Origin: Microcaldota archaeon
GTDB taxonomy: Archaea > Micrarchaeota > Micrarchaeia > Micrarchaeales > Micrarchaeaceae
DNA length: 34,068 nt
Direction of reading: 5' to 3'
Assembly: GCA_030037495.1 (NCBI GenBank)
Contig: JASHRG010000032.1
Span: 1 to 34,068 of the forward strand
The translations under genes and the position numbers were made by a program. The notes beneath the pieces were generated by a model that saw only the letters and a list, made by a program, of their open reading frames with translations, made no database searches and was not told the origin of the DNA. Below, one piece after another: positions 8,743 to 29,293 of the stretch (position 1 is its first letter; every line of letters begins with the position of its first letter).

Positions 8743-9584
8743 CAGATCACCTCTTCCCTTATTGACTTCGTTATCTGCTCTGTTGCTGTCGAGTATGGTA
8801 TTAGGTATTCGGGTTCGACAAATCTGAGTATTGCCTCTCCGGTTATCACGCTTGGAGAAATCCCGAATACGGCTGCGATCGCGGACATCATTTCGCGCGC
8901 CCTCTGCTGCGCTGCCGCTATGGCCTCAAATTCCTTGATGCCAGAGGCAGACACCGAAACATAGTTGACAAGCTCCAGCGATATTGTCCTGCTGACGTTG
9001 TCAAGCATGTGGTGCCACATGCTGGACTTGCCCCTTATCCTGTTTACCTCTGTATCGGGGGCGCTCCGTGACAGAAGCCCCGCCTCCTCGGATTCTGATG
9101 CGCTGGCCGTGCCCCTGAGCGTGCTTATGTATTCATCCTTGTTCATTATGTGGAGCTGGCTTGTGAACCTGGCTGGGCTTGAGCTGGAGCTCACTATTCT
9201 TGCTATCTGGTTTGTGAACTCGAATTTCTCCTGGTCTGTCATCTCGGTTCCAGACCTGTATAAAGGGACCTTGATGAACACTGTTGCAATGTAGTCTTCC
9301 CCCTCTTTGTGTATTATAGAGTCTGTGCTTGAGGAGAGCCAGTACGCCTCCTCAGAGTTCAGCACAACGTTGCGCCTCCTCTGCTTCAGCATTGGCATGA
9401 AAAGATATGAATAGAACCTTGTTGAGAAGGCAAGCGAGTCAAAGAAGAATGCCACGATAAGGAGCGCAAGCTTCTCGATCGGCGACATGTAGTCCAGGGG
9501 CACTGATATTATCACTATTAGCACTATTATTGAGAGCGCGAAAAGCCCCAAGAACATGAATATCCTGTTGTCCATCTGTCTCAA
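8742..9584 (-). CDS. Second 2-TM protein resembling VirB3/PrgI plus VirB4 N-terminal domain
   Basis: 280 aa from TTG 9584; the ATG at 9575 (MDNRIF...) is likely the real start. Same layout as its downstream neighbour; 1-nt stop/start overlap at 8742. Confidence 0.55.
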   Translation of the reverse strand: MRQMDNRIFMFLGLFALSIIVLIVIISVPLDYMSPIEKLALLIVAFFFDSLAFSTRFYSYLFMPMLKQRRRNVVLNSEEAYWLSSSTDSIIHKEGEDYIATVFIKVPLYRSGTEMTDQEKFEFTNQIARIVSSSSSPARFTSQLHIMNKDEYISTLRGTASASESEEAGLLSRSAPDTEVNRIRGKSSMWHHMLDNVSRTISLELVNYVSVSASGIKEFEAIAAAQQRAREMMSAIAAVFGISPSVITGEAILRFVEPEYLIPYSTATEQITKSIREEVI

Positions 9585-9651: not shown

Positions 9652-10851
9652 TTATATGAAGCCGGTCCTGAGCCTGGAGCCCATTATAGGGGAGGCGCCT
9701 ATGAAGGTGGCTAGCTGCGTTATGAAAGTGTAGGTTATGGCTATCACCAGTATGGGGAAGAATACTGCCTGGAGCCAGAGCCCCGTAAACAGCGAGCTTA
9801 TGGTGAAGAAGAAGGAGCATGTTGGAGGAGGGCTTATGCCAGTGCATGCAAGGTTGACCAGTGTGTTCTCCGTTGTGACCGCATACGGGTTGATATTTGC
9901 AGAGTAGAGGAATGATATGAGCGTTGGCGCTACTATATAGAAGCCTATTCCCACAGCGATCAGCATGCCGCCCATCGGCCTTAGCGGGAACACTGCCCTT
10001 AGTATCACGCCTATCACTATGAATACGGGGCTCACGAACGAGAAGAAGTACAGCAGATACTGCAGGCCCCAGAGCACAAGAAGCCCGTCTATCACAAAAA
10101 CCGTAACCTGTATTTCCGGGAATATGTACTGCACGTAGTAGTTGAATTCCTCACCGATAAGCAGGGATTCAGCCGAAGTGGCGACTATGGGCTCGTTGTA
10201 TATGCCTATTTCAAGAGACTGCGAGAGGTAATCTGATAGGAACACAAAGTTGTCGCTTGTGCCCACAACATCCCCTGCCTTTATTGGGCATGTTTGCAGG
10301 GTTTCGCCGCCCGGGCCCAAAGGTATGTAACTCTGCGTGTTGCCGTTGAACACGCAGTCATACTCATACTGCAGCGCGTTAACTGTATTCGATATTGCTG
10401 TCGTTGCGGTGAAGTACGGATCTGTAACTGGCACCACTGTCGTGGAGCCTCCTGCAGATCCCAGGCTCCCTGTAACAGAAGCAGGTATAGTCTGGAGCAG
10501 CAGTCCCGCTATTATAAGGAAGGAGCCCACTATAAGCGCGGTTGCTATCGCCTCATAGATCTCCCCTATGCCGAAGTTCCTTATCCTGTCGCTCTTTATT
10601 GCTGTGCCTATTATGAATATGAACGCGCCTATCGTGAAGGAGAGCATCACCGCTACTATAGCTATGGGCATGAAGTATGCCCAGCTCGTGCATATCTGGC
10701 CCTGTATTCCGCTCTCCTCGCCTGGCAGGCTAAGCGTCTCAGAACCAACAGAGCAGCTCTGTGCGCCTGCCTGGTGCGGCACGATTGAGATAAGTATAAG
10801 TGCGACTAGCAAGAACTTCGCAATTCCCCTGATTGCTCTCTTTGTTTTCAT
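9652..10851 (-). CDS. VirB6/TrbL/CedA-like polytopic membrane protein, paralog 1
   Basis: Signal-peptide-like N-terminus; 'IRNFGIGEIYEAIATALIVGS'; 'VILRAVFPLRPMGGMLIAVGIGFYIVAP' signature. Confidence 0.65.
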   Translation of the reverse strand: MKTKRAIRGIAKFLLVALILISIVPHQAGAQSCSVGSETLSLPGEESGIQGQICTSWAYFMPIAIVAVMLSFTIGAFIFIIGTAIKSDRIRNFGIGEIYEAIATALIVGSFLIIAGLLLQTIPASVTGSLGSAGGSTTVVPVTDPYFTATTAISNTVNALQYEYDCVFNGNTQSYIPLGPGGETLQTCPIKAGDVVGTSDNFVFLSDYLSQSLEIGIYNEPIVATSAESLLIGEEFNYYVQYIFPEIQVTVFVIDGLLVLWGLQYLLYFFSFVSPVFIVIGVILRAVFPLRPMGGMLIAVGIGFYIVAPTLISFLYSANINPYAVTTENTLVNLACTGISPPPTCSFFFTISSLFTGLWLQAVFFPILVIAITYTFITQLATFIGASPIMGSRLRTGFI

Positions 10852-11954
10852 ACTATCCCTATGAGCAGCGAGAAGAAGTCAAGCCTCTCGCCTATGGCTT
10901 TTGAGAAGTCTATCACAAAAGCGTTCACTATTGTGAAGTTCAGGAACGGGATGAATGTGAGCCCTGCTATGCCCATACCAAAGCCTATTATCCATGTGCC
11001 AACAAACGTGGTTCCCTGGCCAAAGACTACCTGGAGTATAGTAGATATGAGATTTGCAGCGATGTTGACAGGCATTGATTCGTTGCTCAAGAAAAGTGAT
11101 GTGTTCACGAATCCATATGTCAGGCACGTGACAAGCGGGTATACCAGGCCAAGGCCAAGTCCCATGGCTATCATTGCACCGCCGAATGTCCTTGTGAAGC
11201 CGAATGTCCTTGCTATAAGGCCAAGCGAAACGAAGAATCCCAGCCATAGAAGCGAAGCGGAAAGCAGCAGTGTTTGCACCTGGTTTACCAGCACAAGGGT
11301 GAGCAGCGCTGCAAAAGCAAACACCAATGCGCTGTCTATGTCATAAGGGATAAAGCTTGGCAAGCCTGTCGAGCCCGTGTATTTGGTGTTGCCGACAGCG
11401 TATCCCACAGAGACTGAGAACCCGGGGGTGTATCCAAGATATGTTGTGGTGTAGTAGAGCGCGCCGAAAAGGCCAAACGCAAACTGGTTGAAAGACGCCA
11501 CATTGCATGTTGCCAGCTCAAAGACATCGTATGCATAAGAGCAACCAGGAGAAACCAGCGAGACAGAGCTCAGCGCACCCTCCGCACTATAGAAGAATAT
11601 CCCTATGAACAGAAGGAATATTATTATGAATATCACAGAGAGTATCCCTTCGTAGATCTGCGACCTTGCCCAGGCCCTGGCGTTCGGGGAATCTATAAGG
11701 CCAGCAAGCATATAGACTATGACTGCAATCGCGATGAGTATAAGTATAACAAGCGCAGCCACTGCGTACCAGGTGACTGTAGAAGCAGGGAGCGTTGCCG
11801 TCGGAGTTATGGGGAGCTGGAACGCGAAATAGGTAGAGCTTCCGAAGACCACTGGGGACAGAATCAGGGCTGCAAGCAATACTATGAATGTAAGCTTGGC
11901 TGCGCTGGAAAGGACCAGTCTCTTTTCCCTGTTCTTCTCTGTCTTGTTGCTCAT
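10848..11954 (-). CDS. VirB6/TrbL/CedA-like polytopic membrane protein, paralog 2
   Basis: 'ARAWARSQIYEGILSVIFIIIF'; 'GLIARTFGFTRTFGGAMIAMGLGLGLVYP'. 4-nt overlap with each neighbour. Confidence 0.65.
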   Translation of the reverse strand: MSNKTEKNREKRLVLSSAAKLTFIVLLAALILSPVVFGSSTYFAFQLPITPTATLPASTVTWYAVAALVILILIAIAVIVYMLAGLIDSPNARAWARSQIYEGILSVIFIIIFLLFIGIFFYSAEGALSSVSLVSPGCSYAYDVFELATCNVASFNQFAFGLFGALYYTTTYLGYTPGFSVSVGYAVGNTKYTGSTGLPSFIPYDIDSALVFAFAALLTLVLVNQVQTLLLSASLLWLGFFVSLGLIARTFGFTRTFGGAMIAMGLGLGLVYPLVTCLTYGFVNTSLFLSNESMPVNIAANLISTILQVVFGQGTTFVGTWIIGFGMGIAGLTFIPFLNFTIVNAFVIDFSKAIGERLDFFSLLIGIV

Positions 11955-13042
11955 ATAATATTCCTCAGGGTATGCGAGGAGCTCAGGCTGGGCGCCCCGA
12001 GCAGGTCTCCAACCGCTTCCATGAAATCAAATGATATTGAAAGCGAAAGCACAAGCGCAAACAGAATGTACATGACCTGCGGTATGACTGTGCCCGTGAA
12101 CGCTATTATTATTCCGGCTCCTGTGTCGGCGTAGCTTGGCAGGACCGGAACCTTTGGATTGAGCCCGCTCATCAGGTCCTGCAATGACGGAACCGTGACT
12201 ATCACGTTGCTCACGCTGGTCTGCGAAACCAGGAGGTATATCAGCAACGGGAACAGCACGTAGAATGCTATGAACATGCCAAGAAACGCGCCTCCAGCTG
12301 CCCTTGTGAACGGGAGTGTCCTTAGCAGTATCCCAAGGAAGAGGAACACCGGCGCTATGTAGTAGAACAGACCGAGGATTATTGCACCGGCAAATGGCAC
12401 GCTTATGAGCGCGAACAGAACGGCTGTTATTGTACCGTATGCCGTTGACGCCATCTGCATGCCTGTAAGTGGCGCGTCTGACCAGCCGAAGTCAGACCAT
12501 GTAAATGAGAAGCCCTGCATGGCTGCCAATAGGCTATAGTCCTGTGCTGTGTAGAGGTACGCCAGGTCGCCTATTATTGTCAATCCTCCGGAAGCAAGGT
12601 TGTTGCAGTCGCTCCAGAATACGCTGCTGCCGGAAACAACAGTATTGCTTATAGCTACGTAGTTGCCTGGCGGCGGCAGCGGCAGAGTGTTGCTTACCTG
12701 GAACACTCCCAGGAATATCAGGACTATCAGTGCTGTGAGCGCAACCTCGCCTATTTCTGTCCTTCCAAAATTTGCAACGCGGCTTATCCTGAACGCTGAC
12801 CCTATCAAATACGTTAGAGCAGCTATGCTCAGCATGAGCAGCATCACCAGCAACGAAAGCCCGAGTATGGCGTTTGCCGAGAGAGGGGTAATTCCCTGTT
12901 GCTGCGGCAGGCCAAAGAGGCTTGAGCAGAAGCTCCCTGACCCAAACGCTGCGCCAGATATGTTTGGAAGAATCATCAACAGAAGCAGGGCTAGCGAAAA
13001 CAGCTTGATGCTTTTTATCTTCAACAGTTTCTTGTACACCAT
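11951..13042 (-). CDS. VirB6/TrbL/CedA-like polytopic membrane protein, paralog 3 (start revised)
   Basis: ORF track starts at TTG 13075, overlapping the upstream gene by 26 nt. ATG at 13040-13042 gives MVYKKLLKIKSIKLFSLALLLLMILP and an 8-nt gap. Signature 'ILLRTLPFTRAAGGAFLGMFIAFYVLFP'. Confidence 0.65.
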   Translation of the reverse strand: MVYKKLLKIKSIKLFSLALLLLMILPNISGAAFGSGSFCSSLFGLPQQQGITPLSANAILGLSLLVMLLMLSIAALTYLIGSAFRISRVANFGRTEIGEVALTALIVLIFLGVFQVSNTLPLPPPGNYVAISNTVVSGSSVFWSDCNNLASGGLTIIGDLAYLYTAQDYSLLAAMQGFSFTWSDFGWSDAPLTGMQMASTAYGTITAVLFALISVPFAGAIILGLFYYIAPVFLFLGILLRTLPFTRAAGGAFLGMFIAFYVLFPLLIYLLVSQTSVSNVIVTVPSLQDLMSGLNPKVPVLPSYADTGAGIIIAFTGTVIPQVMYILFALVLSLSISFDFMEAVGDLLGAPSLSSSHTLRNII

Positions 13043-13049
13043 GCAAACA

Positions 13050-14633
13050 CTACACGAACCTTGACAAGCCTGCAAGGTCGACGTCGCCGCCTAACAGTCC
13101 CGATATCCCTATTATCGATGCTATGGTCATGATCACGTTTATTATCGGTATAAAGTATGCTGAGACTCCTATAACTCCATAAGCCTGTGCTATGCCAAGC
13201 GCCATGCCCTCCCCTCCTGTGCCCTGACCCGTGTTGGTGTTGTAACTACCAGTGGGGCAGAAGGGCACGCCTGTGCTTGACAACTCTGACTGGAACTGGT
13301 TTGGCAGGCTTGGAAGGCTGTTGAACAGGTTCTTGCCGCTAAGTGCATCTGACAAAAATGTAGGTATGTAATACGCCCAGAAAGCCGGTGGCACTCCTGG
13401 AATGTCATAACCGGTGAGCGCGCTCAGCGTCTGCGACTCGCCGTAGAGAAGGCCTCCGCTTGGCCAGCATCCGCAGTCCTGCGCTATTGCGCTTATCTGC
13501 GGCAGCACAAAGAAGTTGACATAGTACTGCGGCGTGCCGCAGTAGCTTATTGGCGTGCTTTCAAGCGCCGGGAACAGGTCAGGGTTGCTTGCTGTGAGGT
13601 ACTCTATGCCAAAGAAGGTCGGGTATATGAATATCGCGCCTATTGCCACAGCTATGAAGAGCCCTCCGATCTTCCTTGTGAAGAAAAGGCCGCGCAGTGC
13701 AAGGCCTATGAAAAGAAGGTATGGCCATGCGTACATGAAGAAGTTCATGAATATCAGCTGCGCCACAAACGCAGCCGTGGATGTGTAGAGCAGCGTTGTG
13801 ACTGTCGGGACCATTGTCTTTTCTATGTAGTCGAGGCCGTTCAGCGCTGGGAACCTGTACTGTGTGAATGATATGTATGAGGGTGCGAATGGCAGCGGTA
13901 TTATTCCTGCAACCGGCGCTCCTGCGCATGACCAACCGGAGCCTATGCACACTGAAACCGTTGCCCAGAGCCATTTCTGGAAGTTGAGATAAGCGTCGAT
14001 TATGAAGACATCAGATAGATCGCCCGCTACCTGGTTTGTCAGGTTTGCATTGACAACAGTTGCCGTGGCAAGCGGGTAATCCATCAGTGCAGTCGGGTCT
14101 ATTGCGGTTGCTCCTGGCGCGGTTGCGACATCTTGCACTATGCCGCACACGCTCGGCGTCTGCGGGTATGAGACTCCTGTGGCGGTGGGCTGCTCGCTGA
14201 GGAAGCTTGTTGTCACTGCCTCTTGCGCAAAGTACAGGTTAACGTTTGTTGATTCTAGGTTCGTGCATACTCCCATCACGCTTGCAGGGTTCAGTACGCT
14301 TGGCAGGGCTGCTGGAGGTGTCGATACAGCTATGTTGTAGTAGATTGTGCCGAACACAAGCAGCATTGCCATGAGGATTCCTGCTATCAGTGCTGTGCCG
14401 AATACCTGTATTGCCTCGCTCCTTGCCCCCGCTTTCACGCTCTGGTTGTTGAGTATTGCCCCTACCATGTACCAGAGTGCGGCTATCAGCGCGTCTATCA
14501 GTATTGCCAGTATTATGAACGGGGCCACACTCTGCGGCGGCGCAAACGAGCCTATGGGCGGATTCGGCACAGCCAGAATTACGCCGCTGTGCATGAGGTT
14601 CGTGAGGCTTGATGCAAATATCGTGTTTGTCAT
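13050..14633 (-). CDS. VirB6/TrbL/CedA-like polytopic membrane protein, paralog 4
   Basis: 'GLALRGLFFTRKIGGLFIAVAIGAIFIYP'; C-terminus 'LGGDVDLAGLSRFV'; Cys-containing external loops. Confidence 0.65.
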   Translation of the reverse strand: MTNTIFASSLTNLMHSGVILAVPNPPIGSFAPPQSVAPFIILAILIDALIAALWYMVGAILNNQSVKAGARSEAIQVFGTALIAGILMAMLLVFGTIYYNIAVSTPPAALPSVLNPASVMGVCTNLESTNVNLYFAQEAVTTSFLSEQPTATGVSYPQTPSVCGIVQDVATAPGATAIDPTALMDYPLATATVVNANLTNQVAGDLSDVFIIDAYLNFQKWLWATVSVCIGSGWSCAGAPVAGIIPLPFAPSYISFTQYRFPALNGLDYIEKTMVPTVTTLLYTSTAAFVAQLIFMNFFMYAWPYLLFIGLALRGLFFTRKIGGLFIAVAIGAIFIYPTFFGIEYLTASNPDLFPALESTPISYCGTPQYYVNFFVLPQISAIAQDCGCWPSGGLLYGESQTLSALTGYDIPGVPPAFWAYYIPTFLSDALSGKNLFNSLPSLPNQFQSELSSTGVPFCPTGSYNTNTGQGTGGEGMALGIAQAYGVIGVSAYFIPIINVIMTIASIIGISGLLGGDVDLAGLSRFV

Positions 14634-14640
14634 TCTACCA

Positions 14641-15990
14641 CTACAGGCCTGACCAGAACGATGCCGCGCCCTCTATCCCTGAATCAAGCACTTTTGTGAG
14701 GCCTAGCGCGAACCCAACCGTAACCGTGACGTTTATTGCAAACATTACCACAACGGTGAACAGGAATTCGGCGAGCTCAAGCGTTATTCCCTGAACGCTG
14801 TATATCACCTGATCTACGGAATAGCACGCCACCTGGGTGTAAGCCCCTCCTAGTATTGACCCTACAAGGGTGCCGCCTCCGCATGAAATAAGCGTTGCGC
14901 TTGTCCCATAAGAGGATATCGCCTGCTGCAGAAGCTGGCCTAGTAGGCTCTGCACGCTTATTGTAATCTGACCCTGCGGGCTGCCCTCAGCGTACAGATT
15001 AAGGTTGCAGGTGCTTGCCCCCTGCGCGCAGGGATCAACGCCCTGGAATGGCGTCAGCTGGTATGTGTCCATAAGGTAGGTTGCTGATGGGTTGCATACC
15101 GAGGTTGGAAGCGTGGAGCCGCCCGCGCCATTGCATCCGGTGAACATCCAGTTCAATGCGTATGAATCAAACACCACCATTACTGGGTATATTATGTAGA
15201 GCCCTATTGCTATGGCCAGCATAGCGTTTGCAGCCCTTCTTATCAGGCCTCCTGAAAACGCAACAGATCTTAGTATCAGAGCTATTGGCAGCAGCAGCGA
15301 GAACGCGACAGCGCTGGAAATCACCAGTATCAGGTATTGGCCAAGCATTATGCCTATGCCAAGAACTGTAAGCGGCGAGTATATGTCTATGAACTCGCTG
15401 CTAAGGGTTCCCAGGGGCGCGCCAAGCTCAATGCTCGGAGAGCTGCTTGCACCCACGACAACAGGCCCGATCTGCTTGTTGGCCAGAAGGTTTTCTGGCA
15501 GCAGGTCGGCAACGAGGTTGCCAAGCTGTGTCCATATTCCTGAAAGCACGCCGAACGCATACGAGTAGGAGTATATCTGTATGCCTAGCTGCGGGCCTAT
15601 GTTGAATGCGTAATCACCCACATAGCTCTCAGCATAAGAGAATGGATCCTGAGTTGCTGCGCCAGATATTGTGGGCTGCTCCAGCGCTGGGAAGGGCTGC
15701 CCTGCCGCGTATGTTGGCGGCTTCCCACCTGCATATTCAGCGGCTATTGAGTTGCTGACAGCGCCGGTTATCGCACAAAGCGATGAGGTGACCGACAAAA
15801 GTATCATCAGTATGAATATGCTTATGAATATCTGTGTCAATTCTACCTTTGTTACCCCGGTGAGCCTTCCCTTCACGTTAGAAGGGAGGCTCCTGCTAAG
15901 CAAATAGACAAATGAGACTATGAGAAGCATTGTGAGCACTACCAGAGCATTGATCCCGAGCCAGTCAGTTCCATAGTAACATGTCAACAT
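14641..15990 (-). CDS. VirB6/TrbL/CedA-like polytopic membrane protein, paralog 5
   Basis: 'VTKVELTQIFISIFILM'; 'ALILRSVAFSGGLIRRAANAMLAIAIGLYIIYP'. Confidence 0.62.
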   Translation of the reverse strand: MLTCYYGTDWLGINALVVLTMLLIVSFVYLLSRSLPSNVKGRLTGVTKVELTQIFISIFILMILLSVTSSLCAITGAVSNSIAAEYAGGKPPTYAAGQPFPALEQPTISGAATQDPFSYAESYVGDYAFNIGPQLGIQIYSYSYAFGVLSGIWTQLGNLVADLLPENLLANKQIGPVVVGASSSPSIELGAPLGTLSSEFIDIYSPLTVLGIGIMLGQYLILVISSAVAFSLLLPIALILRSVAFSGGLIRRAANAMLAIAIGLYIIYPVMVVFDSYALNWMFTGCNGAGGSTLPTSVCNPSATYLMDTYQLTPFQGVDPCAQGASTCNLNLYAEGSPQGQITISVQSLLGQLLQQAISSYGTSATLISCGGGTLVGSILGGAYTQVACYSVDQVIYSVQGITLELAEFLFTVVVMFAINVTVTVGFALGLTKVLDSGIEGAASFWSGL

Positions 15991-15999
15991 GGATTCACG

Positions 16000-17340
16000 C
16001 TAAGCAAGCTTGAGCTTTCCTATACCGAGCCTTATGTTGCCTCCAAGGACCCTTGCCACGTTCATTGCTATGACTATCCCTATTATCAGGTCAAGCACCA
16101 AGAGTATGAACTGTATCACAACAGGCACAGCGAAATCAAACATAGAAGAGAGCGCAGGCGACAGGTTGCTGTCGAAAAACGCAGCCTGCGCTGCATCGAA
16201 TCCGTACTGCCATGCTAGCTGGTCGTTTTCTCCCGGATAAGGGTTTGCCTGCAGTCCCGAGAAAACCAATGGCGGATAGCTTTCATAAGCCGGAAACGGA
16301 GAGGCGACGCACCATGAGAAGTCGCCGCATGTTGCGGGATACGCAGCATTTGCATCATGGTATGCGTTGAGGTACAGCGGGGAGAAGAAAAGGTTTATCG
16401 GAGTGTCAAGAAATGCAAGCAGCGCCGGGTAGACTATTATTGCTGTTATGGCAAGCGCTATGAGAGTGCCGCCTATGTTCCTCAAGAATGGCGTTGCCCT
16501 GAATATTAAGCCAAGCGGCAGCAGTATGCCCATTCCTATCTGGACAAGAACTATGAAAAGGTAGAGCTGCGTTCCGACAGCAATCAGCATTGGAACAACC
16601 AGGAATCCGGTAGTCTCCTTTAGCATTGATGTAGGGGTTGCAAGCCCTGTATCTAGTACTCCGTAGCTCCAGAACGGCTGGTAGTCTGCGCCGACGTCAA
16701 GGCTTCCGAATACAGGGACGCCAGGAACTGGCACTGGTGGAAATGGAATTGTGAAATACGAGTTAACCTTGAAGCTCTTGAGGAGTTCTGCGCCTGTGGA
16801 TAGCCCAAGCAGGTTATTGTAAGACTCGTTTACAAGGGCTATGGCCCCAGGAACCAGCGACCCTCCAGAGGGGTTTGGCGTGGCCGGGTTGCTGCCTGCC
16901 AGATAACCATACGCTGCCTGGTACATGAAGTCAAAACTTGTAACAGATCCTGGCGCAGATGCGCTGCAATTGCAGTTTGGCAGTGCTGTGGCAAGCTGCC
17001 CGAATATTATTATCACTGAGAAAATCGATGCTGCAATGATCAGGCTCTTTATCGCCTCCCAGAGCTCCCCCTTATACCAGCCCTTGAGCGACTGTATGCC
17101 CAGCACTTCCCCAAACAGATACGCAAGCGCGACCATTGCGAAGGATATGAGCAGAGCTATGATCACGTATGGTATAACATTGTTGATGCAGGCACCGAGA
17201 TTTGCCACTACTGCTGCTCCGGTTGGAGAAGTTGCGCAGTACAGGTTGGTAAAAGGAGATGTGTAAGCAGCGTTCGCAAGGGGCAGAACGATTGCAAAAA
17301 TAACGACAGCAAACAGCGCAAACCCCACTTTCGGAAGCAT
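16000..17340 (-). CDS. VirB6/TrbL/CedA-like polytopic membrane protein, paralog 6
   Basis: 'LKGWYKGELWEAIKSLIIAAS'; 'GLIFRATPFLRNIGGTLIALAITAIIVYP'; C-terminus 'LGGNIRLGIGKLKLA'. Confidence 0.65.
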   Translation of the reverse strand: MLPKVGFALFAVVIFAIVLPLANAAYTSPFTNLYCATSPTGAAVVANLGACINNVIPYVIIALLISFAMVALAYLFGEVLGIQSLKGWYKGELWEAIKSLIIAASIFSVIIIFGQLATALPNCNCSASAPGSVTSFDFMYQAAYGYLAGSNPATPNPSGGSLVPGAIALVNESYNNLLGLSTGAELLKSFKVNSYFTIPFPPVPVPGVPVFGSLDVGADYQPFWSYGVLDTGLATPTSMLKETTGFLVVPMLIAVGTQLYLFIVLVQIGMGILLPLGLIFRATPFLRNIGGTLIALAITAIIVYPALLAFLDTPINLFFSPLYLNAYHDANAAYPATCGDFSWCVASPFPAYESYPPLVFSGLQANPYPGENDQLAWQYGFDAAQAAFFDSNLSPALSSMFDFAVPVVIQFILLVLDLIIGIVIAMNVARVLGGNIRLGIGKLKLA

Positions 17341-17395: not shown

Positions 17396-18127
17396 TTATC
17401 TCTTCAAAAGCCCGAACCTTCCCATGTATGCCTGGCTCTGCAGAACAACAAGGAATGGCATTATGAAAAGCGAGTTGAAAACAAGTATGAGGTAGCTTGA
17501 AAGCGTTGTGCCGCCAATGGTTATGAACAGTGTGTCAAATACGCTGAGCAGCACTATTGCAAGGATGAACCAGAGCACAATGTAGCTGAACCTTGTGAAG
17601 AAATACTTTAGGCTCTGCCTCATTGACCTAGCTATGCCCTTGTCATCTATCACTATTGCTGCAGGTGCATAGAAGAAGAACGGTATTATCAATAGGGAGA
17701 CTATTGCTGGGAGCAACGTTGTTATGCCCAGAATGTAGCTGAGTATGTCAAAAGACACAACTATTACTGTATAGATCAGCAGGGTTATGAACACCTTTGC
17801 TGTGTACCTCTCAAGGCCGTCCCTGACCTCGCTGGTTATCGACGTGTGCGTCCTGCTGTGCTTGACTATCACGTTTATCGCGACTATGGCGAAGCTCAGG
17901 AATAGCAGCGATAAAAGTATAGAAAATGTTATCACCGCTGTTGTAAAAGGAGTAAGGTTAAGGAAAATGCTTGATAATCTAAGGAATATGGCACCTATGT
18001 CATTGTATGTTGGAAAAGATGCGAAAATGGGTATCAAAAATGCTATTATGAATGATATTGAAAAGAGCAGTATTAGCGGAAGGTGCGTAAGGTAGACCTT
18101 CCATGAATATTCCAGAACGTTTGTCAT
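17396..18127 (-). CDS. Polytopic membrane protein of unknown function
   Basis: 243 aa with about six hydrophobic segments; lacks the 'hRxhhFxRxxGG' signature of the six upstream-encoded paralogs. Confidence 0.6.
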   Translation of the reverse strand: MTNVLEYSWKVYLTHLPLILLFSISFIIAFLIPIFASFPTYNDIGAIFLRLSSIFLNLTPFTTAVITFSILLSLLFLSFAIVAINVIVKHSRTHTSITSEVRDGLERYTAKVFITLLIYTVIVVSFDILSYILGITTLLPAIVSLLIIPFFFYAPAAIVIDDKGIARSMRQSLKYFFTRFSYIVLWFILAIVLLSVFDTLFITIGGTTLSSYLILVFNSLFIMPFLVVLQSQAYMGRFGLLKR

Positions 18128-19307: not shown

Positions 19308-19742
19308 TCATCTGCCCGAGAATTCGTGCGCTAGCGCCGCACCGACTATTGCAACCATGGCGGTAATGAACCAGATTGTTATTGCTGCATTGAGCACAGG
19401 CGAGCTTGATGATATGCCTGTTTGCCCCGTATAGACCTGGAAGCTCTGGGACCAGACACTGAGCCCGGTGCTCGCAATTACGCCAACAAAGCCCATTATT
19501 ATAAGAAGAATTACAGCGCTGAGCATGCTGACCCATAATTTGTTGAATGCTTTGGATGCCCTCTTTCCAACCCATATGCCGAACAGCATTGCTATGAATA
19601 TTGAGCCGTTCCCAAGAAGCATCTGAGTCGATATATCCACGTAATTGGTAAAACCTGCTATGAACGATATTATGTCAAAGATTATCCATGTAGCTATCGG
19701 GTATTTTAATATTTCGTAGTAGCTTTTCTGGGCCATTGCCAC
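19308..19742 (-). CDS. Small polytopic membrane protein (about 4 TM)
   Basis: 144 aa, four hydrophobic segments. AT-rich 'gatttaaaata' about 27 nt upstream of the ATG suggests a leaderless promoter. Confidence 0.6.
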   Translation of the reverse strand: MAMAQKSYYEILKYPIATWIIFDIISFIAGFTNYVDISTQMLLGNGSIFIAMLFGIWVGKRASKAFNKLWVSMLSAVILLIIMGFVGVIASTGLSVWSQSFQVYTGQTGISSSSPVLNAAITIWFITAMVAIVGAALAHEFSGR

Positions 19743-19784: not shown

Positions 19785-22727
19785 TCAGGCAACCCCCACT
19801 GGGATGTCTGATGATGTGTACGGTATGCTGCACCCTATAGGCAGCAGTATGCTCTGCACAGGTATGTTGGCTATTATAGACACAGCAACTGCTGACAGGC
19901 CCACTATTACTGCCCCTGCTATGCCTCCCATTATCATGCCCATGGCGTATCCCTGCATTGTTCCGCGCAGCTGCGATGGGACAAGGGTTCCCGCTTCGTA
20001 GAGCACTGCGCCTATCAGCAGTATCAGGAACGAGAACACAAGAAGGGACTGGCTTATAAGCGAGTAGACGCTGCAAAGCTCTGTTGTGAGCGGCACCACA
20101 ATCACATTGCCCCTGTTTGCCTCTTGTTGGCCATTGCCCAGTGCAACAACATTAAGGAAACCTCCTGCAACAAAGCCCCCGTTATAGGTCTCGCAGTAGA
20201 GGTACTGCTCTGTCTGCAACGGATTCGGCTGTATTAGCTGGTCTGCATAAGGGCTGTTTGTCGATATAACGCATGAGTCGCCAGGCGGCTGCGACAGCAC
20301 AACGGTTCCCGTGCCTGAGCTCCCGCCTGAGCAGGTTATGACCCCTGTGTTTGGATCTGCGGTGCAGCTTGATGGGCATGTGACCTCGTCAGGGCCAGGC
20401 CCTGCGGTGCATCCAGGTGGCACGTAGCCAGTTACGCATGAGCATGATGTCCCTGTTAGGTATCCCGTATCTGAGCCAGCAGTCTGCACGCAGTTTCCTG
20501 GCACAGCATCTGATGTTGTGTCTGGCAGGAAGCTCATGTAGCAGCCGGCATCGCCACCGTCTGCTGCTGTGCCGGTGCACTCGTTTGTGACAGATGAGCC
20601 TATTTCACTGCATGCTGTGGCGAAGTTGACAAAAGATGTTGACGAAGAGGTGAATGGTTTTATGTAAAGGTCAACCGGGTTTGAGACTCCGTTGGCATCT
20701 GCCAAAACGTTTGAGTTCTGTGTGCTGGTTGATGACCACTGCAGGGTTGACGGGGCAATTGAAATGCTGCCTAGCGCTGTCTCCTGGTAAGAGCTTGGTG
20801 TTGTTGTATAGGCTGGCTCCTGCTGGTCGCTTACTCCCACTGTACATGTGCCTGAGCTGTCGCAGATTATGTTTGCGCTGGCAAAGAACACTGAGAGCGG
20901 GGCCTGCTGTGGCTTTGATGATAGGAAGTTCTTGGCCTTTGTGGGATAGGTTGCGTTAAGGTAGTAGTAAGCGCAGACAACGTAGCTGTTGCTGGGCTGG
21001 AAGAAGCCTCCAAGCGGCTGGAGCCGCGCAGAGAACCCATCTGCTGTTGGAAGCGGCGTGCCAGTCTGTTCAAGCAGGCATGGAAGGTTTGTGCTGACAG
21101 CAGGGTTGCAGTAAGGCAGCGTGGCGCTGCCTGTAGTTATGCGCGTGCCGCCCCCAGACCCGCCAAGGAAAGGCGCGAATTCCGGGTATGTGGGCGCAAC
21201 ACAGCCATTGCCTGGAGATGCAGAGGCAAGCTCCATAAGGCATAGCCCATTTGCAGATAACATGTTGCAGAAATTCTGCGATGCCGGCTCCTGCACGCCT
21301 CCTCCGGAAGAGTAGAAATCCGTAAATGGAGACCCAGAAGCCATGTTTGCCACTGCTGAAACCTCCATGTCTGCTCCTGGGTTGCTGGCAGGGAATGTGC
21401 TTGAGGTGTTTGTTATGTACATGCCGTAGCTTGGCCCCACTATGTCGTTGGCTGTTATGTTGAGGTAATTCACAAATGGGGGAGGCAGGGAGCCAACTGG
21501 ATAAGGATTACCGTCTTGGTCGTATGCTATTGGCTGATAGTAGGCGCAGACAGAATAGTTGCCCAACGCAAGAGTCTGGTTTGTATAATAGGCTACGTTG
21601 CAGTAGGACTGCAGGCCTGCCTGGGACTGGCCAAGCCATGCTGTGTCTGCAAGGCAGGCTGGCCATGGGTACTGCGCACCGCTCACATATGTTGCGTAAG
21701 CAGAACTGCGAATGGTATTATAGGCGATTCCTGGCGCGTAAAGCTGCGAGTATGAGTAGTAGTCGCCGTATGTGCCTGCCACAGATCCTGGTATCCCGGT
21801 TGGCACTATGCAGCTGTTCTTTGTATAGCCATGACTAGTGTAGCACGAGTACCCGCCGCCGTCCTTCAAAACGCCTGTGAGGTCCTCATTACAGTATGCG
21901 CTGACCGAGCCCTGGGCAAAGAGCGACACGTATGACAATGAGTCTGGGGGCAGGCAGGATGAGCCAGGCGCAGATAGCTCTATGAAAGTCTCTGAGTTGC
22001 ACTGCAGGCCAGAATAGAGGAAGTTGAGATATGCAGAGGTGCCTGGCAGCGCCATGAAAGCGTTCTCGTTCTGCGACACCGGCGCAATACCTGGCGCAGT
22101 GGTGGGGCCGCCGATGGTGAAGTATGGCGCAGCAGCCTGCACAGCAACAAGTATGCCTTCGCCTGCAACGCACTGCGGCTGCGATGATCCCGTGTAAACG
22201 CCGGCGCAATTCCCTGAGGAATCCTCTGCAAACACCGCGTAGTAATAATTACCTGGAGTTGTGTACTCAGCTGTTGATGCGGTAGGATTAGTGACAAGCG
22301 TGCAGTCGTTGTAATCGCTTGGGTCTATGACAGAGCAGTACGACCATCCTGTAACAGTGTTTGCTATGCATATGTTTGTCGAGGGGTCAACGCTGGTGCA
22401 GCTTGGATAGTCCGGCCATCCTGCAGCAGACGATATGTCTACAGAATCGCTCTGCGGGTATGAGACCAGCTCAATGTTGCATGTTGCGCCTGAGCCGAAC
22501 GCAGCAACGCACGGCAGCTCGCTCAGGGCGCCAATATGGACAGCAACCTGGTCCTGCGAGTTTATCTCTACTGTAGGAGTCTGGAATGTTACCCAGGCGT
22601 CGCCGTATTGCTGGCATCCTTGGTCGGTTGCGGGGCAGGTCTCCTGCGAGTATGCAACGTGGGAAAATGCCAGGGCAAGCGTGGCGCTAAGCAGGAGTGC
22701 AAGGAGCACAAGCGCGTGTTTCTTCAT
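19785..22727 (-). CDS. Giant secreted Cys-rich protein with C-terminal VirB2-like pilin module
   Basis: 980 aa. Signal peptide ending 'HVAYSQ'; Cys-rich repeats; last 98 aa (19785-20081): 'LCSVYSLISQSLLVFSFLILLIGAVLYEAGTLVPSQLRGTMQGYAMGMIMGGIAGAVIVGLSAVAVSII...GC'. Confidence 0.75.
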   Translation of the reverse strand: MKKHALVLLALLLSATLALAFSHVAYSQETCPATDQGCQQYGDAWVTFQTPTVEINSQDQVAVHIGALSELPCVAAFGSGATCNIELVSYPQSDSVDISSAAGWPDYPSCTSVDPSTNICIANTVTGWSYCSVIDPSDYNDCTLVTNPTASTAEYTTPGNYYYAVFAEDSSGNCAGVYTGSSQPQCVAGEGILVAVQAAAPYFTIGGPTTAPGIAPVSQNENAFMALPGTSAYLNFLYSGLQCNSETFIELSAPGSSCLPPDSLSYVSLFAQGSVSAYCNEDLTGVLKDGGGYSCYTSHGYTKNSCIVPTGIPGSVAGTYGDYYSYSQLYAPGIAYNTIRSSAYATYVSGAQYPWPACLADTAWLGQSQAGLQSYCNVAYYTNQTLALGNYSVCAYYQPIAYDQDGNPYPVGSLPPPFVNYLNITANDIVGPSYGMYITNTSSTFPASNPGADMEVSAVANMASGSPFTDFYSSGGGVQEPASQNFCNMLSANGLCLMELASASPGNGCVAPTYPEFAPFLGGSGGGTRITTGSATLPYCNPAVSTNLPCLLEQTGTPLPTADGFSARLQPLGGFFQPSNSYVVCAYYYLNATYPTKAKNFLSSKPQQAPLSVFFASANIICDSSGTCTVGVSDQQEPAYTTTPSSYQETALGSISIAPSTLQWSSTSTQNSNVLADANGVSNPVDLYIKPFTSSSTSFVNFATACSEIGSSVTNECTGTAADGGDAGCYMSFLPDTTSDAVPGNCVQTAGSDTGYLTGTSCSCVTGYVPPGCTAGPGPDEVTCPSSCTADPNTGVITCSGGSSGTGTVVLSQPPGDSCVISTNSPYADQLIQPNPLQTEQYLYCETYNGGFVAGGFLNVVALGNGQQEANRGNVIVVPLTTELCSVYSLISQSLLVFSFLILLIGAVLYEAGTLVPSQLRGTMQGYAMGMIMGGIAGAVIVGLSAVAVSIIANIPVQSILLPIGCSIPYTSSDIPVGVA

Positions 22728-22739
22728 TGTCTTCGCTTC

Positions 22740-24611
22740 CTATGTTGGTGCAGGGCAGCTGTTCAGCGTGTAAAGTATGTAAGGAACATTGTAGCCTGAA
22801 ACAAGGGTGAGCGCGTATATTGACACTGCAGCAATTATAAGGCTTGCAACCCCTGCTATGACAAGACCAAAGCCATACGCCTGTATAACCCCCCTTGTCT
22901 GACCTGGAAGTGTGTTTGCCGTAGCGTACAATATCCCTCCTATGAGCATGAGCGTAAGTGCAAGTATTATTAGTATCTGGTTTGCAGCCAGATAGAGCGA
23001 GCATGCTTCAGCCTGAATGCTGCTTATGCTTAGCGGAGGAGGGGCTTGCACGCCTGAGAAAGTACTGCAGGTTGGATCGTATGGCGGGCATGAAAGCGTG
23101 AATGTGTTCATTGTAAAGAATATCTGCGCCGGGTCTGCGTTGTTTGATGGGTAATCTCCCTCATAGCCGCACACGGTGTAGACGTTTGCAGTCAGCAACC
23201 CTGTTTGTATTATGGCTGTGTTGGAACTTGCAGCAATCGGGTATATGCTGTCAGGTCCTCTTGTATAAGATATCACGCATGGTAGAATGCCGGGGCTAGG
23301 GTTCTGCCCACATAGAGGCAAACCGCTTACAGCTCCTGTGCCTGCGGCGCCTGCCAATCCGGAATATGTGCCGCCCTGCTCGCAGTTGTCTATTCCAGGA
23401 GAGGAGAGCTCCATGTACAATGGGTACTGGCCTATTACACCCTGATCATTGCTTATTGGGGATCCGGTTACGGTGAACGTGGCGCTGTTCGGCCAGGTTA
23501 TCTGCTGCGTGGGGTCGCCCTGCGAGTCGGTTATGCTCAGGGAAAGCGGCTGCTGTATATAGTAGTTGGCGTTCTGCGCGCCATTGCTAAGGTTGCGCAG
23601 CACATTCGCATTTGAGGATATGAATGGAGACACAACGTAGTTTGCTACAGCGCCTGACCAGCCATATATGGTGTATTGGCAGCTAACCTCAGCCGGGGAG
23701 TACTCGCCGCCGTTCACTGCATCCACCTTCATGTAGAAGCACAGGTCGTAGGCGCCGGGCTGCTCTGTTCCTGGAGTATACGCAAAAACGCTGGAAGAGC
23801 TGCTGTAGAGGTTGCACGGATTTCCGCCAAAAGTGCCGGACTCTGTGCTGCAGTAGCCTGAGACATAGTCCAGCGTTGACACAGGGTTCAGCGGCGGGGC
23901 CTGCGTGTTTGCCTTGCACGGATAGAACGTTACAGGGCATGTGCTCGAGTAGAATGTTCCGTATGAAGACTCGCCGCATATGGCCCATCCCTCGTACTGG
24001 TTTGACAGGTCTATGTTTATGCTGAATGAGACGGGGTCAAATGCCCCCGGCTGTATGGTCTGTTCTTGGGGCACAAGCGAGTAGCTTGATAGAGTGAGCG
24101 CAGGGCAGGTGCATCCTGCTGTGGTCGGAGAGCCTGGGATTGCGCAGCTCTGGCCGCTCCCTGTTATCTTCACGTACGGCGAGGCCCCCGTCGTTATTGA
24201 CAGGGTTTCAGGGCTTGATACGCTTGATCCGGCGTATGCGCAAAGCGTGTGGGTTACTGTGCCTCCTGATGAGCTGGACACCTGCTCTTGGCCGTATGTC
24301 GATGTCCCGGAAGAGGAAGAGACAACGCATGGAGTTGGGGTTGTGGCTATGTCGGTGTAGCTGCAGTCTGGAAGCCCTGATGGGACTGTAGTCTGGCACG
24401 TGCCTGTCCCATAATCAATTATGTTTGACGGACCAGCGCATGTGCCTACGCAAGCTGATGAAAAGGTGATGGTAGAGCCAGCGCGCGCTGTGCCTGGGCT
24501 TATTGTGAGTGTTGTGCTCTGCCCAGATGCCTGATGCGCCAATCCGGAGAACATGGCCATGCATGCGATTATCAGTACAAATCCGGCGCCTACAGTCCTC
24601 ATCATGAACAC
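22740..24611 (-). CDS. Secreted Cys-rich protein with C-terminal VirB2-like pilin module
   Basis: 623 aa. Last 89 aa (22740-23009): 'ACSLYLAANQILIILALTLMLIGGILYATANTLPGQTRGVIQAYGFGLVIAGVASLIIAAVSIYAL...NSC'. Confidence 0.75.
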   Translation of the reverse strand: MFMMRTVGAGFVLIIACMAMFSGLAHQASGQSTTLTISPGTARAGSTITFSSACVGTCAGPSNIIDYGTGTCQTTVPSGLPDCSYTDIATTPTPCVVSSSSGTSTYGQEQVSSSSGGTVTHTLCAYAGSSVSSPETLSITTGASPYVKITGSGQSCAIPGSPTTAGCTCPALTLSSYSLVPQEQTIQPGAFDPVSFSINIDLSNQYEGWAICGESSYGTFYSSTCPVTFYPCKANTQAPPLNPVSTLDYVSGYCSTESGTFGGNPCNLYSSSSSVFAYTPGTEQPGAYDLCFYMKVDAVNGGEYSPAEVSCQYTIYGWSGAVANYVVSPFISSNANVLRNLSNGAQNANYYIQQPLSLSITDSQGDPTQQITWPNSATFTVTGSPISNDQGVIGQYPLYMELSSPGIDNCEQGGTYSGLAGAAGTGAVSGLPLCGQNPSPGILPCVISYTRGPDSIYPIAASSNTAIIQTGLLTANVYTVCGYEGDYPSNNADPAQIFFTMNTFTLSCPPYDPTCSTFSGVQAPPPLSISSIQAEACSLYLAANQILIILALTLMLIGGILYATANTLPGQTRGVIQAYGFGLVIAGVASLIIAAVSIYALTLVSGYNVPYILYTLNSCPAPT

Positions 24612-24630
24612 TTGTTTGGTATTGCGAAGC

Positions 24631-26598
24631 TCATTTACATAAACCTATTACATTTGCTATCGGCACGTTGCCTGATACGGAAAGCAGCCACACAGACACT
24701 GTTGCTATCACAAGCGCAACAATGCTCACAAGAAGGAATCCTAGTGCATAGCTCCTTGCTATCTCCCTGCTCTGGCTGGGCAGCACGCTTGACCCTGCGT
24801 ATATGGCTGCAGCAAGCAGCATCAGCACCATAGCGAATATCAGCAGTATGTCGCTTATACCGCCGTACAATCCACACGCAGTGTTTTGGAACGTGTTCAA
24901 CTGTATTGAGCTGAACTCATTAATGCCGCCGTTCACTACGCCAATGCCGCAGCCCCCAGTAGGGCAGGTCACCGCTATGTAGGGAAGCGATGTCCCTGTG
25001 ACAGTGCAAAGAAGCGCGTTGCACGAGACAGTGCCTGTCGCGAAGAATGGCGATACCAGCTCATTGCCGTTTACAACAAAGCCAATGAATGGCTCTTCTG
25101 ATCCTGTGGGAAGGAAGTTTATTGGCATGTAGTCATATGCGCAGAATTGGTAAGTGCCAAGTGGCAGGTATTGCGTGTTCATGTATTGCGTGTAGCTGCC
25201 GTTGACCTGGTTCTGGTACGTATCTGGCAATGTTGTGAGCAGGCACGGAGGGCTGTTGGCCGGACCTGAATAGAGAGGGTCGCCCAGGTAGGGCATTAGT
25301 GCCCCGTTTGCAAAAGTGCAGTTAAGGTTTGGCGGGGCAATTGGGCCTGCTGCACCCGGAGGATTGCTGCCCCAGCCAAGGTTAATGAATGATGCGCAGG
25401 CCCTTGACTGAGGGGCAGAGCCCGCTTCTCCTGCAAACTCTATGCCGCATACCTCGCCATTGCCTGTGTTGCACATGCTGAGAGGATACTGCGCTGAAGA
25501 AGATGAAAATGGCGGCGTTGTCTCTATCTCTATCGGCGCCGGGCTTCCAGGATAGAACTCTGTTGGGACAACTGCAAGGCCAAAGCTGGGCGCATTGCTG
25601 GTTATCTCAAATGGCGCGTTTGCCAGGTTAACCGCATTTACCAGGTCTCCGGTATTTGTGAAATAGGCGCATGCAAGATAGCCTGTCTGCGCCTGCGTGC
25701 TTGCCACATCGTTTGCCATGAACGCCGGGGTATAGTTCATTATTGCACATGTGGAGGTGCCGGCACTGCACGATGCGGTCTGCACTGGATATTGGGTGTA
25801 GCAGGAGAAACCATCAGAGTAGTAGTTCCCATCGCATTGGGCCCAGGGCACGCCCTGCGGAGTGGGAAATACAGGATTTGTGAGCTCGGCAGCGTCAGGG
25901 CACTGGAGCGAAGTTACTGGGGTGTCTGTTGTGAAGTTTGATACATAAGCAATGTATATGTCATTCTGGTAGTCGCTTGCGGTCAGGTCAGTGACACCGC
26001 TCATCTGAACAACTATGTTGGCAGATGCGCCCGGCGCTATTTCACTTATCCCGCTTGAAAACTGGCTAGGCTCTATTTGGACATACGATGAGACGCTTGA
26101 CCCAGGAACCACGTTTAGATTCGCGGTTGCGCCTGCTTGATTGAAGCCGCTTGGCCCTGTGAACGGAGGTGGCTCTGGGCTGCTGTAACCGCAGAAGTTA
26201 TATGTGCCAGTCTGTAGATTGGAAGCCGTTGTTGCGCTCAGCGTGCACGTTCCGCCAAGCGCACCTGGCGAGCACTTCTGCGTTGCCATTACGCATGGAT
26301 ATGTTGTTGGCGGGTTACCGCTGCACGCTGGCACTGAAAGCGATGCACAGCCCCCTGTCGGGCTGCCGCTTGGAGTTGTGCAGCTTGCTCCTGAAGTCAT
26401 TTCTATAGCCAGGCAGTCGACCGGGCCTGGCTCGGATAGGCTAAGCGTTGCGGTCGCTGTCTGCGATCCTATTCCCTGCACTATTAGCGACGGGGATATG
26501 CTCATAGTTTGAGAACTTGCACTAGATGCAAGAACAACGAATACGAGCAATGCCGCAATGCACGCCACGAGAGGCGCGTTTGCCTTGGAAGGCGCCAT
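24631..26598 (-). CDS. Secreted Cys-rich protein with C-terminal VirB2-like pilin module
   Basis: 655 aa. Last 83 aa (24631-24882): 'ACGLYGGISDILLIFAMVLMLLAAAIYAGSSVLPSQSREIARSYALGFLLVSIVALVIATVSVWLL...GLCK'. Confidence 0.73.
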   Translation of the reverse strand: MAPSKANAPLVACIAALLVFVVLASSASSQTMSISPSLIVQGIGSQTATATLSLSEPGPVDCLAIEMTSGASCTTPSGSPTGGCASLSVPACSGNPPTTYPCVMATQKCSPGALGGTCTLSATTASNLQTGTYNFCGYSSPEPPPFTGPSGFNQAGATANLNVVPGSSVSSYVQIEPSQFSSGISEIAPGASANIVVQMSGVTDLTASDYQNDIYIAYVSNFTTDTPVTSLQCPDAAELTNPVFPTPQGVPWAQCDGNYYSDGFSCYTQYPVQTASCSAGTSTCAIMNYTPAFMANDVASTQAQTGYLACAYFTNTGDLVNAVNLANAPFEITSNAPSFGLAVVPTEFYPGSPAPIEIETTPPFSSSSAQYPLSMCNTGNGEVCGIEFAGEAGSAPQSRACASFINLGWGSNPPGAAGPIAPPNLNCTFANGALMPYLGDPLYSGPANSPPCLLTTLPDTYQNQVNGSYTQYMNTQYLPLGTYQFCAYDYMPINFLPTGSEEPFIGFVVNGNELVSPFFATGTVSCNALLCTVTGTSLPYIAVTCPTGGCGIGVVNGGINEFSSIQLNTFQNTACGLYGGISDILLIFAMVLMLLAAAIYAGSSVLPSQSREIARSYALGFLLVSIVALVIATVSVWLLSVSGNVPIANVIGLCK

Positions 26599-26668
26599 AA
26601 ACTACCATGATGACTTACAAAGTAGATTATGTTTCTCTATTTAAATAATTATTGCATTTCTGAACCGG

Positions 26669-28069
26669 TCATGTTGAGCAGATCGCGGTTATTGCATTAG
26701 ACGGCGCATTGTAAACTATCGATAGTATGAACGGGGCCAGCACCGCGATTATTGCTCCGGCAACGCCTCCCATTATCATGCCCATGGCGTAGGCCTGCAC
26801 CTGGCCGCGCGCCTGCCCTGGAAGTATCTGCGCTCCCGCGTATATTGCGCCTCCCAGTATCATCAGGGTCAGCGCAAGTATGAACACGATTACGTTTACT
26901 ATAGTGTACACGTTGCATATTGCCTGGATTGCGAGGTTTGCGCCGATGCCTCCGCTTGCGCCGCCCCCGCCTCCGGTTGCTGCGCTGGTTTGCAGCGTTG
27001 CGGATTGCGCCACCCATCCTGCTGATGCAGTATCTGCATAGAAGCACAGTGGATAAGACGATGCGCTAGCTCCGCCGAATGTATAGCCACCTCCTGAATA
27101 TCCTGAGATGGAATTTGCTATAAGGCATGGGGCTGCGCCTGACGTGCTGCATAGAGGCAGGGCCAAGGAATCCGGATCTGTCCCGGAAGAGCACGATGTG
27201 TCCCAGGTTATAGCGGTGCATGTGCCGCCGCTTGAGCACGGACACGTTGAAGCCGTGCATGTGAGCGAGAATGTGTCCCCTTCCCCGCCTGTGGCGCTGG
27301 CAGTGTCGCCGCTTGGAACAGAAACCCCGTTTATATAATCAGTGAACGAGTCGGTTGGCGCAGGCTCAGATATTGAAAGCGTTGTAGATCCGGCCAATGG
27401 CTGACCTGTTGTAGCTGTTGAATAGCCGCATATATTGTCAATGCCACCTGCCGCACTTGAAACCGTGTCCAACACGGTTAGGGCGTCGCCAGATGTTGTG
27501 GCTACCAGGCAGGGCGTTGTAACTGGCATTGTGTAGGAACCTGTGCCGCACGAAGCTGGCAGCAGAGCAGGCATAGACGCCGGGCATGCGCTTGCTCCCT
27601 CGTCTATGATGCTTGTTGCGCCGCTTGAAGTGCATCCACCTCCTATGCAGGACGCCTCAAACTGGACGCTTGTGGGGCTGGTGCATGATGCATCGCTGAT
27701 GCAAGTTGCAGAAAGGTCAAGCACAGCAGATGAGGGGTTCACTTCGCAGGTTGGCTGCGGGCTCAGCAATGTGCCTGACAATCCAGAAGCAGCGCAGAAG
27801 AAGCCCTCAACGCCGTCTATGGAGCCAGCGGAGCAGGTCGTGCCGCTTGAGAGTGTGACCTGAGAGTATGCAACAGACCCGGCCTCGCAGCCCGAACACT
27901 CGGTTGAACTGGAGGTCTCGCATATGTCTGTAGCAATCGTGAACGAGAGCGGTGAGCAGGTTGTTCCTGAGGATTCTGTGCAGGTCTGCGAGTGTGCCAC
28001 CTGCATTAGCTGAGGAATGAATGCAGAGATCACCGCAGCAAGCACCACTAGCCTGAAAAAATTATTCAT
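26669..28069 (-). CDS. Secreted Cys-rich protein with C-terminal VirB2-like pilin module
   Basis: 466 aa with about 26 Cys by hand count. Last 84 aa (26669-26923): 'ICNVYTIVNVIVFILALTLMILGGAIYAGAQILPGQARGQVQAYAMGMIMGGVAGAIIAVLAPFIL...ICST'. Confidence 0.75.
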   Translation of the reverse strand: MNNFFRLVVLAAVISAFIPQLMQVAHSQTCTESSGTTCSPLSFTIATDICETSSSTECSGCEAGSVAYSQVTLSSGTTCSAGSIDGVEGFFCAASGLSGTLLSPQPTCEVNPSSAVLDLSATCISDASCTSPTSVQFEASCIGGGCTSSGATSIIDEGASACPASMPALLPASCGTGSYTMPVTTPCLVATTSGDALTVLDTVSSAAGGIDNICGYSTATTGQPLAGSTTLSISEPAPTDSFTDYINGVSVPSGDTASATGGEGDTFSLTCTASTCPCSSGGTCTAITWDTSCSSGTDPDSLALPLCSTSGAAPCLIANSISGYSGGGYTFGGASASSYPLCFYADTASAGWVAQSATLQTSAATGGGGGASGGIGANLAIQAICNVYTIVNVIVFILALTLMILGGAIYAGAQILPGQARGQVQAYAMGMIMGGVAGAIIAVLAPFILSIVYNAPSNAITAICST

Positions 28070-29204: not shown

Positions 29205-29293
29205 TGAATCCTCTTTTTATTGGCAGATAAGCCTATGCCTTTACATATATTTATATTGGTGCTTGTGCCTAGTTAGATAGAAATCGTGCGTGC

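Follow-up and report, generated by a model that had tools for sequence, protein, structure and literature searches.

Four large proteins encoded in a window of 34,068 nucleotides (positions 1 to 34,068 of contig JASHRG010000032.1, assembly GCA_030037495.1), from the 870 kb, 93% complete genome of a Micrarchaeota archaeon, each end in a module homologous to two stand-alone pilins encoded in the same operon, which also specifies components of a type IV secretion system (T4SS). A preliminary description of the window had proposed this relationship from a motif shared by the tails and the pilins. Using a search profile built solely from the two stand-alone pilins against all 298 open reading frame (ORF) segments of the window, we recovered all four tails, with E-values of 1.7e-25, 7e-17, 4e-15 and 2.2e-12 for the 466-, 623-, 980- and 655-residue proteins, respectively; the best other match in the window had E = 0.5. 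BLASTP comparisons of the pilins with the tails are concordant (E 9e-24 to 4e-10, 32-59% identity), and nine columns of the module are the same in each of the six sequences (Y, Y, P, Q, R, Y, G, I and C), bearing out the proposed motif. The 298 segments include six polytopic, VirB6-like membrane proteins, and since these give no match to the profile the similarity reflects more than hydrophobicity. A generic C-terminal transmembrane (TM) anchor as its sole source, which the preliminary description had named among the findings that would overturn the idea, is ruled out by the same observation. The four ORFs were confirmed on the minus strand (Table 1) and their products are Cys-rich, with 25-40 Cys each, and begin with signal-peptide-like segments as judged by eye, again as had been described. 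A tblastn search of plasmids with the 466-residue protein gave no match.

The label "VirB2-like", which the same description had attached to these modules, holds in part. The stand-alone pilins begin with a signal peptide, after which two hydrophobic helices make up a hairpin whose short loop is polar and positively charged, and their genes lie alongside those for a VirB4-like ATPase and further T4SS components. The best pilin of the window scores 24.4 bits against the Pfam TrbC family (PF04956; E 3.5e-5, curated cut-off 27.9), and a small pilin matches T4SS_pilin (PF18895) at E 9e-4, likewise below threshold; among ten pilins, five match TrbC/VirB2 at E <= 0.01. We retain the label because of these sub-threshold matches of the small pilins together with the operon context, while the curated family cut-offs are not reached. 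The fused proteins had no match in a Pfam scan, and a search of the PDB with the pilin profile found no solved pilin or other chain. In an AlphaFold model of the 655-residue protein the tail is a two-helix hairpin with a predicted local distance difference test score of about 80-90.

Examination of related genomes revealed that the coupling of the pilin module to ectodomains recurs across the genus, in other genera and in one other family, and that it takes four forms. The first, with the module at the C-terminus of the ectodomain, is that of the four proteins in the window. In the second the module is internal, with ectodomains on both sides, as in a protein of more than 1250 residues (L017:16229-20000, module at residues 578-662), in three further cases (L019:6346-9543, L019:9751-13296 and L020:7708-11166) and in another genus (L071:3873-5558). 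In the third the module comes first: one such protein has more than 1,880 residues with many Ig-like repeats, the Ig_7 family scoring above its cut-off (L067:1-5657, minus strand), and another, of 573 residues with an N-terminal module, comes from a different family (L068). The stop-free frame at L067 extends over 2014 residues. The fourth form is a poly-pilin. One example (L014:8313-10211, 632 residues) combines four complete modules with a signal peptide and a short ectodomain; a second (L013:3241-5586), whose N-terminus lies behind a scaffold gap, has at least 781 residues and at least seven modules. Within one chain these modules are 39-65% identical to each other and each has its own Cys pair. 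Given that they share only this much identity, the poly-pilins are old duplications and not collapsed assemblies; an assembly artefact is ruled out by this degree of divergence inside one ORF in two species. Ectodomain-fused and concatenated conjugation-type pilins are thus real and recurrent. In the literature searched, from which subscription journals and preprints were excluded, none is described, and the author of the preliminary description likewise knew of no VirB2-family protein built in this way.

These architectures also bear on topology. As ectodomains can precede the module, follow it or flank it at both ends, and as modules occur in tandem, the simplest arrangement would place both ends of the hairpin on the same side of the membrane. 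By the positive-inside rule, the positively charged loop, together with the signal peptides, points to these ends being outside. The joined ends of TrhA in solved conjugative pili likewise face the pilus surface (PMC13031515).

Of 301 Micrarchaeota genomes, 240 encode the pilin. In a sample of 60 genomes of the class, the large majority keep the VirB4-like ATPase, with identities of about 52-80%. Throughout the family the order of genes is fixed: a block of radical SAM, glycosyltransferase and carbamoyltransferase genes is followed by a pilin slot, the gene for the 243-residue membrane protein and then six VirB6-like genes that lead up to the VirB4 end. One to three small pilins fill the slot in most genera; in the genus of the window it is taken up by an array of large fused proteins, whose genes thus occupy the pilin position of a syntenic T4SS operon, with short gaps and on a single strand. 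We found the pilin in ten of 14 genomes of the genus, all ten of which also encode a fused form, among them proteins of 251 and 264 residues (G004 and G009, respectively). In a tree of the modules (76 columns, six of 91 inner branches starred) the module labels cluster, and the alignment is too short for the tree to resolve fusion events.

The modules share a distinctive signature. A Cys downstream of the hairpin is found in all 95 modules compared and an upstream Cys in 94 of them, and exactly two Cys occur in the module region of 51 of the 54 stand-alone pilins. This pattern suggests a disulfide closing the hairpin on its outer face. We infer that such closure would be a chemical equivalent of the cyclisation by peptide bond known from some bacterial pilins, the ectodomains lying outside the closed loop. 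A Lys or Arg is present in the loop of 100% of stand-alone and poly-pilin modules and of 93% of fused modules, and the fused modules retain the Pro in 90% of cases and the Tyr that follows the loop and the key Gly in 97% each. Taken together, the predicted topology, the flanking Cys, the loop charge and the site-by-site constraint would fit a pilin able to share a filament.

On the ectodomain side, most fused proteins across seven species have in common a Cys-rich domain, usually located towards the pilin module, with the motif LPxC..PCLL..(30-45)..GxYxxCAY. Profiles built with one species left out recovered most proteins of that species, with E-values from 1e-25 to 1e-4; of the rest, one scored only E 0.95 and a few were unmatched, and shuffled decoys reached at most 14 bits. 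In 85 genomes of the family this juxta-pilin domain gave 14 matches in 13 ORFs, every one of them fused to a pilin module, and it matches no family in Pfam. The closest pairs of ectodomains from different species are about 25-27% identical over long stretches, as compared to 37-62% for their modules and 50-62% for the stand-alone pilins; judged by these values, the ectodomains outside the shared Cys-rich domain appear to evolve fast. Above Pfam cut-offs, the ectodomains of relatives contain the InlB B-repeat (E 6.5e-11) and Ig_7. Such divergence, with multiple paralogues per genome, might be read as a library of surface variants, expressed alternately against viruses or host and with no special adhesive function; VirB2 arrays have been so interpreted in Bartonella and Anaplasma (PMC12102498, PMC12857230). 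We consider this very improbable, as the juxta-pilin domain is conserved across species and adhesin-type domains are present in relatives.

The reading that we favour, with confidence a little above even, is that the fused proteins are FimH-like adhesin pilins, which join or cap a conjugation-type pilus for attachment to a host and belong to a domesticated, chromosomal T4SS resembling the Ced and Ted systems. On this account the pilin gene would have been duplicated in place and its copies joined to surface domains. The fused proteins would be exported via their signal peptides, which would then be cleaved, and inserted as two-helix hairpins with both termini outside, closed by the conserved Cys pair. 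The VirB4/VirB6-like machine could extract them into the pilus, where they would serve as minor or tip subunits and each present, at the tip or along the filament, a large ectodomain composed of the juxta-pilin Cys-rich domain and hypervariable Ig-like or other beta domains. These ectodomains would act as attachment heads to the host or a partner cell, by the logic of FimH. The poly-pilins may supply several filament subunits per covalent chain and perhaps form a cap, a ring or a reinforced segment. The architectures hence predict a filament lattice that tolerates large fusions at both ends of the pilin as well as pre-linked subunits.

Several observations weigh against this interpretation. 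The Pro of the second TM helix is kept in 43% of fused modules as against 94% of stand-alone ones, some Gly are lost, and mean identity is 37% among fused and 53% among stand-alone modules; by sequence, this lower conservation would suit a relaxed, non-polymerising use as well. The correlation between the site entropies of the stand-alone and fused modules (rho 0.72 overall, 0.56 within hydrophobic columns) speaks for the favoured reading, though shared ancestry accounts for part of it. The AlphaFold model of a single-chain poly-pilin (predicted template modelling score 0.35) leaves the packing of the subunits unsettled, and Foldseek found nothing significant with it. In the model of the 655-residue protein the ectodomain consists of low-confidence, Ig/MG-like beta domains, which gave only weak Ig/MG-like matches in Foldseek, so that the term "adhesin" draws on the domain types found in relatives. 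Moreover, the locus is known here from its genes, and the filament itself is deduced from them.

The main rival takes up the lower mutual identity of the fused modules and their loss of several residues nearly invariant in stand-alone pilins: the duplicated hairpin would simply anchor surface adhesins or S-layer-like proteins, around the machine or over the cell, and never enter a filament. It is also favoured by some fusions of other genera, such as L070 and L067, whose genes are found apart from the T4SS operon. However, a mere anchor needs neither the loop P-x-x-x-[RK]-G nor the Tyr/Gly pattern and Cys pair, and it leaves unexplained both the chains with four and at least seven complete modules and the position of the fused genes within the pilin slot. 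We therefore regard it as fairly unlikely, if the strongest of the alternatives to adhesin-bearing pilins.

The remainder of the operon is consistent with a reduced T4SS. The 499-residue ATPase has its best NCBIfam matches to CedB (E 3e-19) and CedD (E 4e-19), far below the equivalog cut-off, and matches HerA and VirB4-like proteins in the PDB; on these matches it is a predicted CedB/VirB4-type ATPase. The six polytopic proteins match no family in Pfam or NCBIfam, and no profile supports their identity as VirB6. In three relatives (L069:6546-7754, L071:9073-10254 and L072:2395-3507) the pilin profile also matches one VirB6-like protein at its N-terminus, with E-values between 1.7e-8 and 4e-4, and a comparable relation between a VirB6-like protein and a pilin has been reported for CedA and CedA1 (PMC9905601). 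The two membrane-anchored proteins that separate the ATPase from the VirB6-like block are possibly counterparts of VirB3 and of the N-terminal part of VirB4. The 102-residue protein resembles the C-terminal 75 residues of the adjacent VirB4-like ATPase; small ORFs of this kind lie beside VirB4 in a number of relatives, too. The 144-residue membrane protein has no family in Pfam or NCBIfam and is possibly an accessory to the fused pilins. Profiles for VirD4 (PF02534) and the MobA-type relaxase (PF03432) found no match in the 14 genomes of the genus, in which control profiles matched; therefore, this is a resident chromosomal system and not an evident mobile element. The lack of these matches also fits a putative role in DNA import or a use not involving DNA.

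In Pfam and NCBIfam searches no VirB5-, VirB8-, VirB9- or VirB10-like gene was recognised in the operon, and the large, Cys-rich ectodomains are encoded together with the machine. It is conceivable, then, that the fused proteins build, outside the cell, a sleeve or channel guiding the pilus through the envelope, with the module docking on the VirB6-like platform and the whole replacing VirB5/7/8/9/10. Yet in most genera this machine occurs in the absence of fused proteins, which are therefore dispensable to it, and rapid divergence and variable number suit a partner-facing over a machine-facing role. We accordingly rate this possibility as improbable.

Table 1. Features of the window, with positions counted from its first nucleotide.
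Feature	Position	Strand	Remarks
Topo VI B gene	1-945		PF09239 E 1e-51
Coiled-coil/winged helix-turn-helix protein	4840-5568	-	Start of run
102-aa protein	6057..6365	-	25% identity to residues 425-497 of VirB4-like ATPase
VirB4/CedB-like ATPase, 499 aa	6370..7869	-	Profile and PDB matches
Two membrane-anchored proteins	7909..9584	-	Between VirB6-like block and VirB4
Six consecutive polytopic membrane proteins	9652..17340	-	VirB6-like by topology and position only
243-aa polytopic membrane protein	17396..18127	-	Always adjoins pilin slot
Stand-alone pilin A, 136 aa	18193..18603	-	
Stand-alone pilin B, 136 aa	18809..19219	-	TrbC/VirB2 match below cut-off (E 3.5e-5)
144-aa membrane protein	19308..19742	-	Accompanies expanded pilin slot in several congeneric species
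Fused protein, 980 aa	19785..22727	-	Signal peptide, Cys-rich ectodomain, C-terminal pilin module
Pilin module of 980-aa protein	19824..20081	-	Residues 883-968
Juxta-pilin Cys-rich domain of 980-aa protein	20835..21368	-	LPxC..PCLL..GxYxxCAY
Fused protein, 623 aa	22740..24611	-	C-terminal pilin module
Pilin module of 623-aa protein	22749..23009	-	Residues 535-621
Fused protein, 655 aa	24631..26598	-	C-terminal pilin module
Pilin module of 655-aa protein	24634..24882	-	Residues 573-655; helical hairpin in AlphaFold model
Juxta-pilin Cys-rich domain of 655-aa protein	24997..25566	-	
Fused protein, 466 aa	26669..28069	-	C-terminal pilin module closest to stand-alone pilins
Pilin module of 466-aa protein	26672..26923	-	Residues 383-466

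The minus-strand run starts beside the Topo VI B gene and continues with the coiled-coil protein, two small proteins, the ATPase, the two membrane-anchored and six polytopic proteins, the 243-residue protein, the two pilins, the 144-residue protein and the four fused proteins; spacing is below 100 bp throughout, except for the 205 bp separating the two stand-alone pilins. At 2290-4689 lies a gene for a 799-residue protein with a predicted ectodomain and a cytoplasmic-looking C-terminal part, for which Pfam and NCBIfam scans gave no family. At 28140-33441 are the radical SAM gene, two glycosyltransferase-like genes and a NodU-type carbamoyltransferase gene that accompany the pilin slot across the family; their products possibly modify the surface of the pilus or the envelope.

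FimH-type tip adhesins of chaperone-usher pili carry an adhesin and a pilin domain in one polypeptide. The fused proteins are like them in this respect, with fold and assembly being unrelated, so that the comparison is one of analogy only. Closer in kind are the Ced and Ted DNA-import pili (PMC9905601), which are likewise reduced archaeal T4SSs with a VirB4-type ATPase, polytopic pore proteins and small two-helix pilins (CedA1, TedC), TedC having an N-terminal signal sequence as do the pilins of the window; our locus is also Ced/Ted-like in being chromosomal and without a relaxase match. It differs in having six VirB6-like genes and no sequence similarity to CedA1 or TedC that the searches used here could detect, and in the accessible text the Ced/Ted pilins are single small proteins, with no mention of ectodomain fusions, tandem poly-pilins or a Cys pair (PMC9905601). 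With VirB2/TrbC (PF04956) and T4SS_pilin (PF18895) the window pilins share the signal peptide, two hydrophobic helices, positive loop and T4SS operon; they differ in their sub-cut-off scores, flanking Cys pair, and fused and concatenated forms. The Bartonella Trw system, with multiple copies of TrwL/VirB2 and TrwJ/VirB5, offers a parallel in amplified, variable pilin genes and a proposed host-specific binding, but its pilins as reported there are small and unfused and share adhesion with VirB5 (PMC12857230).

How DPANN archaea such as ARMAN/Micrarchaeota hold their hosts and exchange material is an open question, the imaged connections being without a known protein: ARMAN cells have been imaged with pili-like links to Thermoplasmatales (PMC4110969), and on a Micrarchaeon thin filaments were noted, with larger nanotubes assigned to the host (PMC11329633). 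The locus, a phylum-wide T4SS pilus with lineage-specific ectodomains, is a concrete candidate for such filaments, a link that we put forward as a hypothesis. A pilus built partly of adhesin-bearing pilins and partly of covalent poly-pilins with four and at least seven subunits per chain, by which Micrarchaeota recognise and connect to host archaea, is a tentative proposal that falls somewhat short of even likelihood; if true, it would define a class of filaments with pre-linked lattice subunits bearing their own receptors. The locus has a counterpart in the Patescibacteria, also reduced and host-attached (here probably so), in which a VirB2 array of divergent paralogues lies by VirB4, mostly without a relaxase (PMC12102498; PMC12857230). 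Several divergent pilin paralogues adjoining a relaxase-less T4SS are found in our system too, by analogy and in a different lineage. The bacterial arrays consist of 2-11 separate pilin genes (PMC12102498), and the accessible accounts report neither large ectodomains nor single-chain poly-pilins (PMC12102498; PMC12857230). One such array is essential in a cultured epibiont (PMC12102498; PMC12857230), and the parallel suggests that the conjugation pilus was reused for epibiosis convergently, in Bacteria as well as in Archaea.

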